Below, piece after piece: positions 27,772-40,335 of a stretch of 64,000 nucleotides of DNA (positions within the stretch are counted from its first letter, which is position 1; every line of letters begins with the position of its first letter). Position numbers and translations under genes: made by a program. The notes below the pieces were generated by a model. The model saw nothing but the letters and a program-made list of their open reading frames with translations, did not search any database and was not told the origin of the DNA. The stretch spans positions 310,001 through 374,000 of the forward strand of contig JAOANU010000002.1 of assembly GCA_034387635.1 (NCBI GenBank). Reading direction: 5' to 3'. Origin of the DNA: Rhodosporidiobolus odoratus. Its lineage: Eukaryota > Basidiomycota > Microbotryomycetes > Sporidiobolales > Sporidiobolaceae.

Positions 27772-29514
27772 TTACTTCTTCTTGTCTGCCGGCTTGGTCA
27801 TCATCCTGTACAGAGCCTAGTCAGTTGAGGTAAGCGGCAAGAAGAGAAGGGGAGACTGCGCACCTGGTGTAGCCATACTGGTATTGACCAGGAACGTTGA
27901 CGACAATACCGAGCTCTTGAGCCCAGTTGAAGACGAGGTCGGCATCCCGCAAAAACTCGCGGGCGACGGAGATCTACGCAAGATGAGACAATCGTCAGCT
28001 AAATGGCTGGGACAGAGGAAGAGGTGAGAGCAATACTTACGATGTCGGCCTTGCCAGCCTGGAGAATCTCCTCAGCCTGCTTGCCGTTGGTAATCAAACC
28101 GACGCAAGAGATGGGGATAGCCTCCTCCGGAGTGAGCGACTTCTTGATCTCCTCAGCGAAGCCAACCTGCAGAACACAGAGCGTTGTCAATTTTGCGAAG
28201 AGCAAAGCAAAGAAGGTTGGAGAGACGCACCTGGTATCCCGGACCAACGGTGATCTTCTGCTCGGGCGTGTTACCGCCCGAAGAGACATCGACAAGGTCG
28301 ACGCCGAGCTTGATAGCCTCCTTGACGTACACCTTGGACTGCTCAATTCCCCAGCTGATCCACTCGCCCTTGTCGTCCTTCTCACCGGCGGGGTACCAGT
28401 CGGTGGCGGAGATCCTGAGAAGGAGAGGCTTCGAGGCGGGCCAGACCTTGCGGACCTCGGCGATGCACTCGAGGGGGAAGCGGAGGCGGTTCTCCCTTTG
28501 GTGCAAAGACAGTCAGTGCCGGCTTGCATGACGGCTCAGCAGCGAGGAAGAAGAGGAACCTACAGGCTTCCACCGTACTTGTCCGTCCGCTTGTTGCTGA
28601 GAGGGCTGAGGAAGTTGTGGAACATGTAGCCGTGGGCCGAGTGGATCTCGAGGACGTCCGCTCCAGCCGCATCAGCACGACGAGTAGCATCAACCCAAGC
28701 CTGGGTGAGCTCCTTGAAGTCCTTCTCGGTCATCTCCCTGGGGAGCGGGAAAGACTTCTCGTTGAAGGAGACGGCCGATGGCGCCATGACATCCTCAGTC
28801 CAGCCGTTGGCAGCGCCGTCTGTGGCGACGTGGGAGCTGAGCGGCTTGGAGATGGTAGGAGTGTGAAGCCACGGGGCGAGAGTGGAAGTCTTGCGACCAC
28901 CATGTGCACTGAGCAAAGAGCCTGTCAGCCATTGAGCGGGACAGGCCTGATAGAGTAGACGTACAGCTGGATAGCGGCCTTGGAGCCTTGAGCCTTGATG
29001 AAGTCAAAGACACCCTTGAGGGCTTCCTGCTGCTTGTCATTCCAGAGACCAGAGTCTTGCGGGGTGAGGCGACCATTCGGGAGGACGGAAGTAGCCTCGA
29101 CCATGACAATCGCAGCTCCTCGAACAGCCATGCTGCCGAGGTGAACGAGGTGCCAAGGAGTCAAAACACCCTGTTCGGGGCCTTCCGGGGCGCAAGAGTA
29201 CTACGCAAAGAGCGCGAAGTCAGCTTGCGGAAAAGGAACAGGAAGAGGCTGCAACTCCTGTCTCTAAGAGAGGGCCGCGGACGCACCTGGCACATCGGTG
29301 CAACCCAGATCCTGTTCTTGACCTCCATCTTGGCCGTCTTTCCAACAATGTACGGCTGGAAAAGCAGCGGAAGATCCTTGTTCTGCGGCCAGTCCTCAGC
29401 TGACATGGCGGTTCCAGGTGCTGGGGTGGTCTGCGGCTGGTAGAAGGGTGCATTCGGGACGAAGGGGAGGACAACCTCGGGGTGCGGTGGGGCGTAAGAA
29501 GCGTCGTCGGACAT
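27772..29514 (-). CDS. old yellow enzyme-type NADPH dehydrogenase (YqjM-like)
   Basis: FMN-dependent ene-reductase that reduces C=C bonds of activated alkenes. Exons on the minus strand join from ATG 29514 (MSDDASYAPPHPEVV) to stop 27772 (ending MMTKPADKKK). Family motifs: KNRIWVAPMCQ spliced to YSCAPEG, where the Cys is the flavin-tuning residue of the YqjM class. Also visible are PWHLVHLGSMAVRGA, QLAHGGRK, the active-site His pair in LEIHSAHGYMFHNFLSPLSN followed by RTDKYGGS, DLVDVSSGGN, and the FMN phosphate-binding strand near the end (ISCVGLITNGKQAEEIL, then KADIVSIAREFLRD). Length, about 420 residues, is normal. Odd: a 9.8-kb tandem Crypton lies 3 bp before the start codon, so the original promoter at 39285-39775 has been displaced. 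The coding region itself looks intact. Confidence 0.9.
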
Positions 29515-29517
29515 AAT
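29513..29517. repeat. left flanking direct repeat ATAAT
   Basis: ATAAT directly precedes the first element base (GTATCTGAAG at 29518) and recurs at 39285-39289, directly after the last element base (TATATCCAAT ending 39284). It may be the duplicated or recombined target core. AAT also occurs at all three element borders (29515-29517, 34398-34400, 39282-39284), so the true core could be just AAT. Confidence 0.6.
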
Positions 29518-30468
29518 GTATCTGAAGAGCGTTACCACAACGAACCCACGGGCCTCGGCTCGTTAGCCGACCGATCGGCGGCCTGAGCGGATCTGGTTGG
29601 CTGCCGCGCGGGATTTCGTTACTTTGACTTTACACTGTGTAACGGCGCTGGTACCGCTCGTGTTATCCATCGTTAGTCGTGTAAAGCCCTGTCCGCGCAA
29701 GCCCGCCTGCCTCACTTCGTCACCCTTTACACGCTTGGTGGCCGCTTCTCCAACTCCGCCTCTCATCGCTCGTCTTCTCTGTGTCCTTCCTAGCCTTATA
29801 CACGGCTCTACAACTGCCTCAAGAGCCGTCTGGTCGGGCATTACATACTCAACGTTGACGCCAGAGAAGCGACTCCCTTTTCCCTCGTCAACTCTTCCTC
29901 GACTTTTGCGCTGGTCGCACCCACTCAGATCGCTGTCGAACTCATCAACAAACTACTCCAGTACCCTCTCAAGCGATACACAACCCACTCGCGCCTCCGC
30001 ACACCCTTGTCTCTATCTTCCCTCTTTCGTCCTTGCCGACTCTCTCGCTCTCGTGCCAGCTCGACCACTCAGATGGGCCACCAGCACGTCCGACCAGCTC
30101 ATTGGGTGCTCGGTAGGCAGCTATGCAGGGTTGCTGAAGCAATATGAGGTGCGCTATTCTCCTTTCTCGCGCGTCTTCTGCTCCCGGATTCGAAACCGCA
30201 ACGGTCACGGCCTTGTAGCATGGTGGGGCGCGGCAAGCAAAGAGTGCTGTAGAGTTCTGCAACACGGCTGCACCAATAATGGCAAAGTCAACAATGGAGA
30301 GATAGAGAAGCTGTTAGCGCTGTTCCTTCTCTTCTCCTTCTTCCGCTTTCTCCAGGCGCGAAGAAGACAAGCTGATAATGCATAGGGGATTGCAACAAGC
30401 AGGAAGAATAGCAAGACTACAAAAGTGAGCAGAAAATAGACGAGAGCGATAGCGAAATCAAACTAACT
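29518..30468. other. left arm of Crypton unit 1, function unknown
   Basis: About 950 bp lie between the element end and the recombinase stop. A 262-codon plus-strand frame without ATG (29597-30385) stays open in both units, the only indel there being a 6-bp in-frame change. A 92-codon ATG frame on the minus strand (29563-29841) exists in both copies, one substitution apart. Neither resembles a known protein. The arm probably holds recombinase binding sites and regulatory sequence, and it now forms the upstream region of the OYE-type gene. Confidence 0.4.
29556..29582. repeat. subterminal inverted repeats near Crypton left end
   Basis: CGGCT-CGTT-AGCCG (29556-29569) overlaps a second imperfect palindrome, GCCGACCGATCGGCGGC (29566-29582), 38-65 bp inside the element. 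The same sequence is at 34439-34465 in unit 2. Tyrosine recombinases usually bind short inverted repeats beside the crossover core, so this is a candidate site. That role is an inference. Confidence 0.4.
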
Positions 30469-33400
30469 CTACCTCAGAACCCACCGTCGGGCATCCTCGA
30501 CCAGGTCCTCCTCCCTCTTCGCCTTGGTGTCATCCCCCTTGTCTGCAGGAGACATCCTGTCGTGTACACCCCTCAACCCCGTTGAAAAGCGGGAGTCAAG
30601 GAACTGACAGACCCTGGCCTCGGTCCATCCGAGCTGCTGATGCATCCTCTCGACGAGGGCGACGACAAACTTGATGCGGTGGTAGTGAGAGGCAGTAGTC
30701 CCATTCTTTGCCTTCGTCCTCCACTCCGTCTTCCAACCATCCTCGAGCTGCATCAAACTGATCCTTCCATCCAAACCTCGACGCCAACGCTCGACCTCCT
30801 TTTCAACCGACAACAGCTTATCGATCTTATAAGCCGGAACCCAGCGCCCACTTGATGACAGAGCTCCTTTAGCGTAGGTCCAGGTGAAGGAGATGGTGGC
30901 AATGAGGGAGCCGTAGCGGTCGACCAACCTCTGCATCTCATCCCGACGGTTGTCCGGCGCTGACTGCCACGTGAAGGGTAGGAGGATCCGAGGAGGCGTG
31001 TCGGTATCAGGGAAAGGTGCGAGTGTGGGCGCTGCGACATCGAATGGGGGGCGGGTAGGCTGGCCACGATAAGGAGTCGGCTGTGGGGCGGAAGACTGTG
31101 CCGAGGAAGAGGAAGAGACACGGGACTGAGCCTGTGGTACAGATGGGGCGCGTTGATGAGTCAAAGCTGGAGGTTGGACGGGAGACGAGGTGGCAGGACA
31201 AGAAGGTGGAAGCGGTGCAGCGACAGCCGATGCAAAAAAATGGGAAGGGGGAGGGGGAAGGCGAGGGGATCCGACGCTATAGTGGAAGGGTGGCTCTTGA
31301 CCGGGCGGAGCAAAGGTCGATGAGGTAGAAGGCGGGTAGGGACAAGGGTAGTGGGCTGGGGGTCTTCCGAGGGGCTGTACGGGCTCGGTCTCTGCTGAGA
31401 AGAAAAGGAGAAGGCGGGCTGAACGAACGCGGTTGGCGGTGAGGCAGAAGGGAAGGACGGTGGGGGAGCTGGCTGCGAGTTTGGGTTGTAGGAGGCGGCA
31501 GCTAAGGCCAAAATCAACGGTTAGTTAGGCATTGCCGAGGAGAAGGGGAATAAGGCTCACTTTTGTTCGGAGTTTGGGACGCAATCTGCACGGGCTAAGA
31601 CAGTCAGCGCACGAGCACAAGCTGACAGTGTATAAGGAGAGAGCGCACCGGTTGTGCAGAAGTGGTGTGGACCGCCATTAACTTCTCGAACATCCCCTTG
31701 ATCTCCTCCATCCCGTCCGTAAATTTCCGCTCTGCGCGCTTCCTCTTCTTCCCCCCACCACTCGCATCAAGTCCGCTCAAAGCCTCGCCCAGATCCGCTA
31801 CTTCCGCTCTCAGCTCGAGGAAGGACCGTCCAACAGCGGCGGAATGCTGCTGAAACTGAGCCACGAGGGAGGGAAGCGGTCGCTTGTCCGAGGGCGTCGT
31901 TGACCGCAGTCGGTAGGTCAGCGTGCTTCTTTGCATGCTCTACTTCGAGGTCGGAGACACGGCTGGCAAAAGAACTGGCATAGGATTGGAACTCGGTGGA
32001 GGAGAAAGGATGGAAGGAATAGATTGCAGCCTTCTTGTACTGCGGGTAGAGGAAGGCGAGGTCTTGCAGCAGGACCGAGCGGAACCAGATGAGAGTGTTC
32101 AAGAACCCGTAGAGAGCGAGGTCGAGGGCCTTCGGGTTTGCGGCAGCCCGCTTGTGGTACGCTTTGAGCTCGTCTTCAACCCATGGCCACAACTCCTTGA
32201 GCAGGCTTGGTGAAGGGTCTGCACACGAAAAGAAGCAGAGAACAATCGGTCACGTCAACATGAGGAAAGGTGCGGGAAAGGCAGGACCAGGACGGGTCAC
32301 TTGGAGCAGAGACAAAACAGTGGAGAACGTACCGACTTCTGCTCGAGGCAAGAAATAACGCTCTGGGTAGCGCCCATCGAACCCAGCGAGAGCTACCAGC
32401 GCCGATAGCGGAAGCTCTCGCATGTATGCCGCGCGAAACGAACCGCCATCGCGCCATCCGCCCAAAGCCTTCGTTTCGTCTTCGGTTGCCCCGCCGGCAA
32501 TCGCCGATCTCGCGGCCGTACCGCGCGCAGCGTGCGTCGTATGGGAGGTGTGGATGTCACCTTTGTCGTGTAAGCCTTTGATGGCGTTGTTGTGAGCTGA
32601 CAGCCACGAGAGGACCGGCTAGTCAGCTTGAAGGAACGGGGAAAGGGAGGAGAAAGCGTGGAGGGAGAGCTTACTTGCGTAGGCCATGTCCTTGTCAAGA
32701 TCTTCGCCCTCGGCGTTCTTGGCCATCCGCCCCGGGAAGAGACGCCGAGCATACCAATTCCGGTGACCGTAAGGACTCATGCCGGCAATGCCGGACTTGA
32801 AGTCGGGCTCAAAGGAAGGGCGCTTGTTCGTCAGCACCTGATCGACCATGAAGAGAAGCATGGCGACCATGAAGATGCCGCAGAAGGTGGGGTCGCGGTG
32901 TCGAAGGATACCGACCTGGTCGAGCCGGCCTTCTCGATTCATCTTGCCGTTGTTGGAGAGAATGACAAGAAGGGGGAGCTTCGTCTTCCCACCAGGAAGG
33001 TCGTGTTGGTGATAGGTGAGGTCGCTCCAGGCAATTTGACGGATATTGTCGCCGCGGAAAGCGGTGCTCAGAGCAAGGAAGAAAAGGGCGAGATTACGGA
33101 TGTCGGTGGCAGCGGTGGACACAGCGGAAGGACGGGCGGCCGTGAAGATCTGGTCGAATACATCGAGCTGTTGATCCGTTGTAATGCGTTCTTGCAGCGA
33201 GCCCTGAGCCTTCGACGACATTCCTTGCTCCGACCGCTTCGCCTCATCCTTCTTCCATAATTCCTCCAACTGGCGGATCGAAGCATCGTCGCGTAGCTTG
33301 ACGTTTGGGATGGCGGGGAAGCGGTGCACCGTCTCGCGACGTTCCTTCTTGAGCGAGGAGACCATCTGCGCAGAAAAGCGAGAAGGGAGAGATTAGCTCG

Positions 33401-34218
33401 AATATCCACAGAGTCAATGTCAGGTGACTCACCTGCTGAAGCGAGGTTCTACCCAGCTTGCCCTTCGTCTGCTCGCTCGGTTCATCTTGGTACCATATGA
33501 GAAAGAGGTAGGCTTTGACCGGGGTGATGGGGTAAGGCGAGATCTTTCCGGCGTACTCGTTGGCAGTGTCCTTGAAGAAGTTGATATAGCGCTTGAGTTT
33601 GTTGTTGTAGATTGAGTTGGTTGTGGTGTTCTTGCTGTGAGCGCGAGCCCGAGCGACGGCATCTTCGCGAGCAAGTATGCCGAGTTGGGCGAGGTAAGCG
33701 TCGCCGTCTTGATTGCTCTGCGCCGCTTCCGTGAGGGCGACTTTGGCGGCTTCTGCCTTCGATACTGCAGAGGAGATTTCGTCAACGGATTGTCCCGGAC
33801 GAGTGTGAAGCGGATCGAGGAGGAAGAGTAAGAGTACGCACGTAATTCCTCTCCAGCTGAGCGATGGCACACGCGAGAGCAGTCAGCACCGCTCAGTTGC
33901 ACGTAAGGAGACCTTGACCTACCAGCAGTAATCTCCCCAGCCTTCCGCCGTTTGCGCTTCGCCTTGCCTCCGCCCGCGCTCTATTCGCGTACACACGAGG
34001 GCCGTTCAGTCACGCGCTGACCCGTGCCATAGTTCAGCGGGTCGATACGCACTGTAGTAGTAGCGGACACGCTTGTTCCAGCAAGTTCATCGTTGTCGAC
34101 GGTGGGAGGACCCTGCGAGGACGAGGAGGTGAGGGGGGCACGGAGTGATGATACGAGAGCAGCGACGGACGATGCTGAAGGTCGGGTCCATGTGTGCGGA
34201 GACTTCTGAGTTCGCCAT
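30469..34218 (-). pseudogene. Crypton tyrosine recombinase gene, unit 1, frameshifted in its C-terminal part
   Basis: Catalyses integration and excision of the element. I place the start at ATG 34218 (MANSEVSAHMDPTFSI), followed by short exons with a basic nuclear-localisation-like stretch (KAKRKRRKAG). An N-terminal core-binding region follows (NKLKRYINFFKDTANEYAGK). The catalytic domain shows the first Arg in AFRGDNIRQIAW, HxxR-like HTTHAARGTAA, and the Tyr nucleophile in WRDGGSFRAAYMRELP (32410-33070). A helical segment and a Pro/Ser-rich linker lead to a GCR1_C-like domain (DKLLSVEKEVERWRRGLDG, EDGWKTEWR) ending at 30469. An extra GGGA near 31870 and an extra GG near 31360 disrupt the frame after the catalytic domain, so the GCR1_C part is probably not translated in frame. 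The catalytic exons are open. Confidence 0.8.
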
Positions 34219-34397
34219 GAGCGTAGCCGAGCAGCCAGATAGCGAGAAGTGCGCAAACGAAGTAATAGAGAGATGATTAGGCGCGCGTTGTGGAAAGCAA
34301 TACGTTTCAGGGCATAATGTTTGTTATCCCCGCGTTACCCCCCGTTTCCGTCCAACAACCCTAATAACGGTCTAATGCGGCTTTGTATGTTATATCC

Positions 34398-34410
34398 AAT
34401 GTATCTGAAG
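34398..34410. other. head-to-tail junction between Crypton units
   Basis: The right end of unit 1 (TATATCCAAT) abuts the left end of unit 2 (GTATCTGAAG) without extra bases. The same end-to-end joint would exist in an excised circular element, so this sequence shows what the circle junction should look like. Confidence 0.8.
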
Positions 34411-37400
34411 AGCGTTACCACAACGAACCCACGGGCCTCGGCTCGTTAGCCGACCGATCGGCGGCCTGAGCGGATCTGGTTGGCTGCCGCGCGGGATTTC
34501 GTTACTGTGACTTTACACTGTGTAACGGCGCTGGTACCGCTCGTGTTATCCATCGTTAGTCGTGTAAAGCCCTGTCCGCGCAAGCCCGCCTGCCTCACTT
34601 CGTCACCCTTTACACGCTTGGTGGCCGCTTCTCCAACTCCGCCTCTCATCGCTCGTCTTCTCTGTGTCCTTCCTAGCCTTATACACGGCTCTACAACTGC
34701 CTCAAGAGCCGTCTGGTCGGGCATTACATACTCAACGTTGACGCCAGAGAAGCGACTCCCTTTTCCCTCGTCAACTCTTCCTCGACTTTTGCGCTGGTCG
34801 CACCCACTCAGATCGCTGTCGAACTCATCAACAAACTACTCCAGTACCCTCTCAAGCGATACACAACCCACTCGCGCCTCCGCCTCCGCACACCCTTGTC
34901 TCTATCTTCCCTCTTTCGTCCTTGCCGACTCTCTCGCTCTCGTGCCAGCTCGACCACTCAGATGGGCCACCAGCACGTCCGACCAGCTCATTGGGTGCTC
35001 GGTAGGCAGCTATGCAGGGTTGCTGAAGCAATATGAGGTGCGCTATTCTCCTTTCTCGCGCGTCTTCTGCTCCCGGATTCGAAACCGCAACGGTCACGGC
35101 CTTGTAGCATGGTGGGGCGCGGCAAGCAAAGAGTGCTGTAGAGTTCTGCAACACGGCTGCACCAATAATGGCAAAGTCAACAATGGAGAGATAGAGAAGC
35201 TGTTAGCGCTGTTCCTTCTCTTCTCCTTCTTCCGCTTTCTCCAGGCGCGAAGAAGACAAGCTGATAATGCATAGGGGATTGCAACAAGCAGGAAGAATAG
35301 CAAGACTACAAAAGTGAGCAGAAAATGGACGAGAGCGATAGCGAAATCAAACTAACTCTACCTCAGAACCCACCGTCGGGCATCCTCGACCAGGTCCTCC
35401 TCCCTCTTCGCCTTGGTGTCATCCCCCTTGTCTGCAGGAGACATCCTGTCGTGTACACCCCTCAACCCCGTTGAAAAGCGGGAGTCAAGGAACTGACAGA
35501 CCCTGGCCTCGGTCCATCCGAGCTGCTGATGCATCCTCTCGACGAGGGCGACGACAAACTTGATGCGGTGGTAGTGAGAGGCAGTAGTCCCATTCTTTGC
35601 CTTCGTCCTCCACTCCGTCTTCCAACCATCCTCGAGCTGCATCAAACTGATCCTTCCATCCAAACCTCGACGCCAACGCTCGACCTCCTTTTCAACCGAC
35701 AACAGCTTATCGATCTTATAAGCCGGAACCCAGCGCCCACTTGATGACAGAGCTCCTTTAGCGTAGGTCCAGGTGAAGGAGATGGTGGCAATGAGGGAGC
35801 CGTAGCGGTCGACCAACCTCTGCATCTCATCCCGACGGTTGTCCGGCGCTGACTGCCACGTGAAGGGTAGGAGGATCCGAGGAGGCGTGTCGGTATCAGG
35901 GAAAGGTGCGAGTGTGGGCGCTGCGACATCGAATGGGGGGCGGGTAGGCTGGCCACGATAAGGAGTCGGCTGTGGGGCGGAAGACTGTGCCGAGGAAGAG
36001 GAAGAGACACGGGACTGAGCCTGTGGTACAGATGGGGCGCGTTGATGAGTCAAAGCTGGAGGTTGGACGGGAGACGAGGTGGCAGGACAAGAAGGTGGAA
36101 GCGGTGCAGCGACAGCCGATGCAAAAAAATGGGAAGGGGGAGGGGGAAGGCGAGGGGATCCGACGCTATAGTGGAAGGGTGGCTCTTGACCGGGCGGAGC
36201 AAAGGTCGATGAGGTAGAAGGCGGGTAGGGACAAGGGTAGTGGGCTGGGTCTTCCGAGGGGCTGTACGGGCTCGGTCTCTGCTGAGAAGAAAAGGAGAAG
36301 GCGGGCTGAACGAACGCGGTTGGCGGTGAGGCAGAAGGGAAGGACGGTGGGGGAGCTGGCTGCGAGTTTGGGTTGTAGGAGGCGGCAGCTAAGGCCAAAA
36401 TCAACGGTTAGTTAGGCATTGCCGAGGAGAAGGGGAATAAGGCTCACTTTTGTTCGGAGTTTGGGACGCAATCTGCACGGGCTAAGACAGTCAGCGCACG
36501 AGCACAAGCTGACAGTGTATAAGGAGAGAGCGCACCGGTTGTGCAGAAGTGGTGTGGACCGCCATTAACTTCTCGAACATCCCCTTGATCTCCTCCATCC
36601 CGTCCGTAAATTTCCGCTCTGCGCGCTTCCTCTTCTTCCCCCCACCACTCGCATCAAGTCCGCTCAAAGCCTCGCCCAGATCCGCTACTTCCGCTCTCAG
36701 CTCGAGGAAGGACCGTCCAACAGCGGCGGAATGCTGCTGAAACTGAGCCACGAGGGAAGCGGTCGCTTGTCCGAGGGCGTCGTTGACCGCAGTCGGTAGG
36801 TCAGCGTGCTTCTTTGCATGCTCTACTTCGAGGTCGGAGACACGGCTGGCAAAAGAACTGGCATAGGATTGGAACTCGGTGGAGGAGAAAGGATGGAAGG
36901 AATAGATTGCAGCCTTCTTGTACTGCGGGTAGAGGAAGGCGAGGTCTTGCAGCAGGACCGAGCGGAACCAGATGAGAGTGTTCAAGAACCCGTAGAGAGC
37001 GAGGTCGAGGGCCTTCGGGTTTGCGGCAGCCCGCTTGTGGTACGCTTTGAGCTCGTCTTCAACCCATGGCCACAACTCCTTGAGCAGGCTTGGTGAAGGG
37101 TCTGCACACGAAAAGAAGCAGAGAACAATCGGTCACGTCAACATGAGGAAAGGTGCGGGAAAGGCAGGACCAGGACGGGTCACTTGGAGCAGAGACAAAA
37201 CAGTGGAGAACGTACCGACTTCTGCTCGAGGCAAGAAATAACGCTCTGGGTAGCGCCCATCGAACCCAGCGAGAGCTACCAGCGCCGATAGCGGAAGCTC
37301 TCGCATGTATGCCGCGCGAAACGAACCGCCATCGCGCCATCCGCCCAAAGCCTTCGTTTCGTCTTCGGTTGCCCCGCCGGCAATCGCCGATCTCGCGGCC

Positions 37401-39284
37401 GTACCGCGCGCAGCGTGCGTCGTGTGGGAGGTGTGGATGTCACCTTTGTCGTGTAAGCCTTTGATGGCGTTGTTGTGAGCTGACAGCCACGAGAGGACCG
37501 GCTAGTCAGCTTGAAGGAACGGGGAAAGGGAGGAGAAAGCGTGGAGGGAGAGCTTACTTGCGTAGGCCATGTCCTTGTCAAGATCTTCGCCCTCGGCGTT
37601 CTTGGCCATCCGCCCCGGGAAGAGACGCCGAGCATACCAATTCCGGTGACCGTAAGGACTCATGCCGGCAATGCCGGACTTGAAGTCGGGCTCAAAGGAA
37701 GGGCGCTTGTTCGTCAGCACCTGATCGACCATGAAGAGAAGCATGGCGACCATGAAGATGCCGCAGAAGGTGGGGTCGCGGTGTCGAAGGATACCGACCT
37801 GGTCGAGCCGGCCTTCTCGATTCATCTTGCCGTTGTTGGAGAGAATGACAAGAAGGGGGAGCTTCGTCTTCCCCACCAGGAAGGTCGTGTTGGTGATAGG
37901 TGAGGTCGCTCCAGGCAATTTGACGGATATTGTCGCCGCGGAAAGCGGTGCTCAGAGCAAGGAAGAAAAGGGCGAGATTACGGATGTCGGTGGCAGCGGT
38001 GGACACAGCGGAAGGACGGGCGGCCGTGAAGATCTGGTCGAATACATCGAGCTGTTGATCCGTTGTAATGCGTTCTTGCAGCGAGCCCTGAGCCTTCGAC
38101 GACATTCCTTGCTCCGACCGCTTCGCCTCATCCTTCTTCCATAATTCCTCCAACTGGCGGATCGAAGCATCATCGCGTAGCTTGACGTTTGGGATGGCGG
38201 GGAAGCGGTGCACCGTCTCGCGACGTTCCTTCTTGAGCGAGGAGACCATCTGCGCAGAAAAGCGAGAAGGGAGAGATTAGCTCGAATATCCACAGAGTCA
38301 ATGTCAGGTGACTCACCTGCTGAAGCGAGGTTCTACCCAGCTTGCCCTTCGTCTGCTCGCTCGGTTCATCTTGGTACCATATGAGAAAGAGGTAGGCTTT
38401 GACCGGGGTGATGGGGTAAGGCGAGATCTTTCCGGCGTACTCGTTGGCAGTGTCCTTGAAGAAGTTGATATAGCGCTTGAGTTTGTTGTTGTAGATTGAG
38501 TTGGTTGTGGTGTTCTTGCTGTGAGCGCGAGCCCGAGCGACGGCATCTTCGCGAGCAAGTATGCCGAGTTGGGCGAGGTAAGCGTCGCCGTCTTGATTGC
38601 TCTGCGCCGCTTCCGTGAGGGCGACTTTGGCGGCTTCTGCCTTCGATACTGCAGAGGAGATTTCGTCAACGGATTGTCCCGGACGAGTGTGAAGCGGATC
38701 GAGGAGGAAGAGTAAGAGTACGCACGTAATTCCTCTCCAGCTGAGCGATGGCACACGCGAGAGCAGTCAGCACCGCTCAGTTGCACGTAAGGAGACCTTG
38801 ACCTACCAGCAGTAATCTCCCCAGCCTTCCGCCGTTTGCGCTTCGCCTTGCCTCCGCCCGCGCTCTATTCGCGTACACACGAGGGCCGTTCAGTCACGCG
38901 CTGACCCGTGCCATAGTTCAGCGGGTCGATACGCACTGTAGTAGTAGCGGACACGCTTGTTCCAGCAAGTTCATCGTTGTCGACGGTGGGAGGACCCTGC
39001 GAGGACGAGGAGGTGAGGGGGGCACGGAGTGATGATACGAGAGCAGCGACGGACGATGCTGAAGGTCGGGTCCATGTGTGCGGAGACTTCTGAGTTCGCC
39101 ATGAGCGTAGCCGAGCAGCCAGATAGCGAGAAGTGCGCAAACGAAGTAATAGAGAGATGATTAGGCGCGCGTTGTGGAAAGCAATACGTTTCAGGGCATA
39201 ATGTTTGTTATCCCCGCGTTACCCCCCGTTTCCGTCCAACAACCCTAATAACGGTCTAATGCGGCTTTGTATGTTATATCCAAT
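34401..39284 (-). mobile_element. Crypton DNA transposon, unit 2 (right copy)
   Basis: Same structure as unit 1, with its recombinase gene at 35358-39102 on the minus strand. Its C-terminal exons (including 35358-36404, 348 codons open, and 36491-37075, 194 codons open) are intact. One extra C at 37871-37874 shifts the frame inside the catalytic-domain exon. Flanked on the right by ATAAT and then by unique sequence that leads to the RING-finger gene. Confidence 0.85.
35358..39102 (-). pseudogene. Crypton tyrosine recombinase gene, unit 2, frameshifted in its catalytic domain
   Basis: Same exon plan as the unit 1 gene: start MANSEVSAHM at 39102, stop at 35358 after DLVEDARRWVLR. The catalytic residues in AFRGDNIR and, further on, HTTHAARGTAA and AAYMRELP are all encoded. 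A fourth C at 37871-37874 (three C in unit 1 at 32988-32990) shifts the frame right after LTYHQHDLPGG, separating the first catalytic Arg from the other residues. The coiled or helical segment, Pro/Ser-rich linker and GCR1_C-like domain are in one frame here. GCR1_C is a DNA-binding domain also found in the yeast activator Gcr1, and its pairing with a tyrosine recombinase is the Crypton signature. Two substitutions in catalytic-domain exons relative to unit 1 are both synonymous (CAT/CAC His, GAC/GAT Asp). If the extra C is a sequencing error, this copy would be full length. Confidence 0.8.

Positions 39285-40288: not shown

Positions 40289-40335
<47 letters not shown>

Follow-up and report, generated by a model that had tools for sequence, protein, structure and literature searches.

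The 64-kb window, by which we mean the whole stretch of DNA analysed here, contains two 4.88-kb Crypton units arranged head to tail, and this array is probably a CryptonF-type dimer made by its own tyrosine recombinase (YR) or by a relative acting in trans. Self-BLAST of the window (E ≤ 1e-10) returned one repeat pair, 29515-34400 against 34398-39284 on the same strand, with an identity of 99.65% over 4,893 columns, 4 mismatches and 4 gaps. The two units together, referred to as family A, extend from 29515 to 39281. Copy 1 lies at 29515-34397 (4,883 bp) with its gene on the minus strand, and copy 2 lies in the same orientation at 34398-39281 (4,884 bp). They are distinguished by eight events, namely 4 substitutions and 4 indels of 6, 2, 4 and 1 bp, in agreement with the first-pass annotation, which had described two 4.88-kb units fused end to end with about eight differences.

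The three boundaries of the array were compared, and all of them contain the trinucleotide AAT, at 29515-29517 on the left, at 34398-34400 in the dimer junction, where it is present in a single copy, and at 39282-39284 on the right. The left boundary reads ...GTCGGACAT|AATGTATCTG, the junction ...TATATCC|AATGTATCTG and the right boundary ...TATATCC|AATATAATGG. The AAT is preceded by the host bases GACAT at the left boundary, as opposed to the element bases ATCC at the junction and the right boundary, and it is followed at the right boundary by host ATAATGG, which is different from the bases at the other two boundaries. This is the layout of n units and n + 1 cores of a site-specific insertion, with a common core of only 3 bp. 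Because AAT is common to the boundaries, the left edge can be placed at either 29515 or 29518, and the extent of 29518 to 39284 given for the array earlier is right within this ambiguity.

An assembly artefact, in which allelic or circular copies were joined in tandem, is an improbable origin of the array. The structure is known from the assembly rather than from reads, and two of the four indels fall in homopolymer runs, as an artefact might have it; the eight differences, however, include duplications of 4 and 6 bp, the flanks of the array occur only once in the window with no duplication by self-BLAST, and a like array is found in a second family on a different contig.

By its predicted domains, family A is CryptonF-like, combining a tyrosine recombinase (NDC10_II with catalytic R, HxxR and Y) with GCR1_C, and the earlier identification of the units as Cryptons is supported by the R-H-R-Y residues of the YR and by GCR1_C. 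The gene was modelled on the minus strand with the splicing read by eye, and its N-terminus is uncertain. In copy 1, the spliced model stays in one frame through the recombinase domain. Upstream exons at 34112-34053, 33980-33923, 33856-33842 and 33764-33433 (all within 33433-34112) are followed by an open exon at 32675-33365 that holds the first half of the YR catalytic domain (NDC10_II, 7.2e-8; catalytic arginine at ~33054-33056), and then by an exon at 32333-32596 in which HxxR (~32523-32534) and the catalytic tyrosine (~32424-32426) were located by alignment, the frame alone giving no Pfam match. In copy 2, the C-terminal part of NDC10_II was matched in an open frame at 36494-37132 (Pfam, 7.3e-10). 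GCR1_C (PF12550) matched in both copies on the same strand, downstream of the YR exons of the by-eye splice model, at 30472-31401 in copy 1 and in an open frame at 35361-36407 in copy 2 (Pfam, 2.6e-7). NDC10_II was above its Pfam cut-off in family A and also in a second family, B, while PF00589 was below threshold in family A (0.013), and no DDE domain was found in the 7 family A frames scanned by Pfam, which are a subset of the frames of the unit. An alignment of four groups, consisting of copy 1 of family A, families B and C described below, and a single relative on C10, showed invariant R113, H29-R32 and Y65. We also considered whether a host gene had been duplicated in place, and rejected this reading because YR and GCR1_C are present in the array and its relatives are scattered through the genome.

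The first-pass annotation had called the units complete, which does not hold for their coding content, since the by-eye gene model is frameshifted in both copies. In copy 1, a 4-bp tandem duplication (31865-31868, minus strand) puts the sequence beyond the YR domain out of frame and leads to a stop at 31767, by which the GCR1_C stretch is severed from the YR exons. Two extra bases in a G run of the same copy and strand (31358-31359) bring the sum with the 4-bp change to 6, yet the stop intervenes. In copy 2, one extra base in a C run (37871, minus strand) causes a frameshift inside the YR domain, and the frame is lost before the H-R-Y residues of HxxR and the catalytic tyrosine. Sequence error might account for the 1-base and 2-bp changes, which fall in homopolymer runs; the 4-bp duplication is of a different type. 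With this gene model, the genome shows no intact family A gene. The window array is a fairly recent but probably immobile relic, as judged from its reading frames. Recombinase activity "caught recently", as the array had been described, holds only in a relative sense: substitutions amount to ~0.08% (4 in ~4,880 bases), and the gene is broken in both known copies.

Other Cryptons, which the first-pass annotation had proposed to look for, are present in the genome. Searching it with the YR exon gave 18 matches, three of them inside the window's own two copies, and families B and C were defined by comparing 9-10 kb stretches around the YR relatives. Family B (3.75 kb) was found in 8 copies, which occupy 7 loci, and family C (3.79 kb) at 5 loci. 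Compared with the reference copy of family C, two copies were 99.3-99.4% identical, one was 81-82% identical, and a truncated one was 77-78% identical. A DNA search of the 24.8-Mb genome found no family A copies other than the two in the window, all such counts being lower bounds. Families A and B show 31% identity over the matched part of the YR. Families B and C carry NDC10_II and GCR1_C, except for the truncated C7 copy of family C, which has no GCR1_C match; in family B, both domains lie inside one 475-aa open frame (L027:4689-6113). No sequence match to a solved structure was obtained at E ≤ 1 for the C-terminal frame of family B. Two more single YR relatives, at C7:971681-972661 and C10:713969-715381 (L025), are apparently decayed, with internal stops, and neither of them gave a GCR1_C match.

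Six solo loci set the ends of family B to the base, with a left end of GACCTTCTCAA, a right end of TTACCTTCTCAA and unrelated flanks outside them at the 7 loci. Families B and C both insert at a core common to the two element ends, and the family C core, CCTTCTCAA, is the same as in family B. The right end of family C reads TTACC at 4 of the 5 loci, which are those where the right end was found. The left flanks of the five family C loci are GGCC, GACC, GACC, GGCC and AACC, and because they vary by locus, the left-hand bases derive from the target. At one family C locus (L037), the host DNA beside the right end repeats the core with the same flank (TGACCTTCTCAATCCAGTC); we read this repeat as a native picture of the empty target, and it supports insertion at a pre-existing core. 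A 116-bp relic of the family B left end (C1:349196-349317) likewise begins at the core. The direct repeats at the ends are 9-10 bp long in families B and C, at several sites, and 3 bp long (AAT) in family A, at one site.

A second dimer was found at C15:481117-488618 (L027 with L028), where two family B copies with 99.79% identity lie head to tail. Its junction reads TTACCTTCTCAAACCCG, so that right and left ends meet at a single 10-bp core, ACCTTCTCAA. Because the family B ends are set by the six solo loci, the exactness of the C15 dimer at its ends is a real test, and the dimer breaks exactly at those ends. No solo copy of family A was found, so that its ends are defined chiefly by the array, and an argument from exact ends is partly circular there. 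The earlier argument that the breakpoints of a segmental duplication would seldom coincide with the element ends therefore holds for family B and is partly circular for family A. We rejected segmental duplication with breakpoints independent of the element ends on the family B result, the family A test being weaker.

The presence of a dimer in the distantly related family B strengthens the reading that a recombinase made the array. Of the 15 loci with YR homology, 2 hold dimers; the 15 comprise one of family A, seven of family B, five of family C, the C10 relative and the decayed match at C7:971681-972661; the C1 relic and a weak GCR1_C match on C20 (E 0.1) were left out of this count. A tandem duplication by microhomology or slippage (AAT...AAT in family A and ACCTTCTCAA...ACCTTCTCAA in family B), with no recombinase involved, is unlikely, though the best of the alternatives. 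A microhomology of 3 bp is ordinary at duplication junctions, the family A ends are defined mainly by the array, and the 10-bp direct repeat at both ends of family B could serve as a substrate for slippage. However, such an event would be needed twice, in two families among only 15 YR loci, and in family B it would have had to occur exactly at the ends set by the solo copies. In the variant table of the 8 family B copies, each C15 copy has private changes, and one substitution is common to both of them and to the C31 copy; no variants exclusive to the C15 pair were found in this table, which was read by eye. This pattern, weak evidence given the few events, fits an origin of the C15 dimer at or near insertion.

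The distribution of short words also bears on the family A boundaries. CGTTA/TAACG occurs 8 times in the family A unit, and 7 of the 8 lie within the two terminal 170-bp windows, which in copy 2 means five at the 3' end (34413-34558; copy 1 counterpart at ~29530-29675 by offset) and two at the 5' end (39217-39253; copy 1 counterpart at ~34333-34369 by offset). As a control, internal window pairs were sampled, and the best word was taken for the terminal and control sides alike. At k=5, none of 369 internal pairs (170-bp windows) or 326 internal pairs (250-bp windows) was as extreme as the CGTTA ends. The control was weaker at k=6, where 3/325 and 5/274 control pairs reached the observed value, and at k=7 the signal was absent (266/340 and 290/293). 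The clusters at both unit ends suggest, at k=5, that the family A boundaries are true element ends, which argues against slippage in this family. Comparison of the first 350 bp with the last 600 bp of family A revealed inverted words of 8-10 bp, the nearest of which are 105 and 28 bp inside, and none at the extreme ends. The C10 relative (L025) was rejected as a guide to the family A ends, as CGTTA/TAACG is unclustered around its gene.

End-concentrated words were also observed in the other two families. CGGACTC lay in the terminal 300 bp in 6/6 instances in family B and 7/7 in family C, and in the family B control, 1/165 pairs (170 bp, k=7) and 3/127 pairs (250 bp, k=5) reached the observed value. 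In families B and C, as represented by L027 and L036, both ends carry a palindromic word, CGAGTCCGGACTCG, or parts of it, and AGTCCGGAC was near the ends in 4/4 and 4/4 cases. These last two words are possibly binding sites of the recombinase or of GCR1_C.

In the mechanism that we propose, the recombinase would recombine a short core at an element end with the core carried by a different molecule or copy. By one route, a circle could enter the end of a resident copy; alternatively, a dimeric circle could enter an empty site, or the left end on one sister chromatid could recombine with the right end on the other. Every one of these routes would lead to n units and n + 1 cores at a single site, and the observations fit the circle and sister-chromatid routes equally, so that a free circle, for which the dimer is indirect evidence, would be one candidate route. 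The first-pass annotation had derived the dimer from a circle; a dimer made by a recombinase is indeed the best reading, with the circle as only one of several ways to it. We infer both the agency of the recombinase and the route from the structure of the array, its gene family and the dimer of the second family. Frameshift decay of both family A copies would then probably have frozen the array.

Unequal homologous recombination, acting on two copies that are allelic or nested, is a far less probable origin than the recombinase reaction. Near-identical copies are good recombination substrates, and the element ends would be preserved if dimers pre-existed. But recombination of this type amplifies or shrinks an existing dimer and cannot found one, and one copy at one site cannot yield a single-core dimer by long homology, the cores here being 3 and 10 bp long.

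Prokaryotic integrative elements and temperate phages offer a parallel to a dimer made by a recombinase. Their tyrosine integrase can put a circle into the end of a resident copy, which gives n units and n + 1 cores. The arrays described here have the same arrangement as these tandem integrations, but they are eukaryotic and known from sequence alone. Starships are also fungal DNA elements mobilised by a YR, but they are much larger and have DUF3435 captains, whereas the units here are 3.75-4.9 kb long and carry NDC10_II and GCR1_C. Their domains and catalytic residues place our families in CryptonF as defined by Kojima and Jurka (2011, PMC3212892); the core lengths found here fall outside those reported there. 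As described in that paper, CryptonF elements, e.g., Crypton-Cn1 of Cryptococcus neoformans, combine a YR with GCR1_C, as do the families here, and they have short direct repeats but no terminal inverted repeats at their ends, which may also hold for the units here. The spliced genes and these protein families point to a probably fungal host; CryptonF is also reported in that paper from oomycetes. The terminal direct repeats of Cryptons are given there as 4 or 6 bp, in contrast to 3 bp in family A and 9-10 bp in families B and C. Unlike CryptonF as described in PMC3212892, two families here occur as head-to-tail dimers; the word "tandem" is used a single time in its main text, within the title of a cited work on P elements, and we claim no priority. 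According to PMC3212892, it was Goodwin et al. who, drawing on prokaryotic elements as an analogy, proposed that Cryptons are excised as a circle and reintegrate at a short core. Two single-core dimers from two families in one genome, together with solo family B copies for comparison, form the footprint that the circle model predicts, and they would provide a natural system for measuring dimer resolution, circle junctions and target use.

The core of families B and C is an abundant word in the host genome. GRCCTTCTCAA has 1,694 sites (843 + 851), a count that takes in the occupied left ends, compared to 32 (14 + 18) for the reversed pattern, and TGACCTTCTCAAC has 281 (135 + 146) compared to 0 + 0 for its reverse. 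In the window, CCTTCTCAA occurs 8 times (9416, 17209, 20743, 27147, 56937, 57348, 59350 and 63935), against a mean of 0.86 and a largest value of 4 in 100 shuffles. It was found 17 times in 137,582 bases of host DNA, where 9 words were commoner; most of the other top-ranking 9-mers were tracts of purines or pyrimidines. When the masking was widened slightly, 15 host CCTTCTCAA sites were left, 7 of them inside stop-to-stop frames of 150 aa or longer; such frames take up 66% of the host DNA. When the sites were split post hoc by the two preceding bases, all GRCC sites (7/7) were outside such frames, and 7/8 of the other sites were inside. This grouping, post hoc and of 15 sites, suggests that the host word may be a non-coding element. 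Non-autonomous family B derivatives were rejected as the source of the abundance, as one 116-bp relic was found and inspection of the 25- to 31-base flanks of the other sampled core sites revealed no element end.

From these data, we tentatively propose, with somewhat less than even confidence, that Crypton recombinases in this genome repeatedly build dimers at resident copies and that two families have adopted the abundant host word GRCCTTCTCAA, perhaps a non-coding regulatory element, as their attachment core. If so, landing sites would be scattered across the host genome, and one site-specific reaction would serve both to insert copies and to stack them.

To the left of the array lies an NADH:flavin oxidoreductase-like gene on the minus strand (28000-29514), whose likely ATG (29512-29514, by inspection) touches the left boundary. 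Oxidored_FMN was matched at 7.5e-23 on the frame 28563-29003 and, under the cut-off, at 0.0017 on 28156-28512. Pfam gave no match on the frame that holds the proposed ATG, and the start and extent of the gene were placed by inspection. Because the likely ATG abuts the left boundary, the array would, on that reading, lie within the 5' region of this gene, and the upstream region of the gene would be displaced by 9.8 kb. Among the copies of the elements, indels were about as frequent as substitutions, with 4 compared to 4 in family A and 15 blocks compared to 17 columns in family B; several of them in the two families are 3-9 bp long, and the 4- and 6-bp ones of family A are tandem duplications. 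On the right of the array, a run of 44 T was observed at 40291-40334 of the window, in or near a plus-strand open frame.
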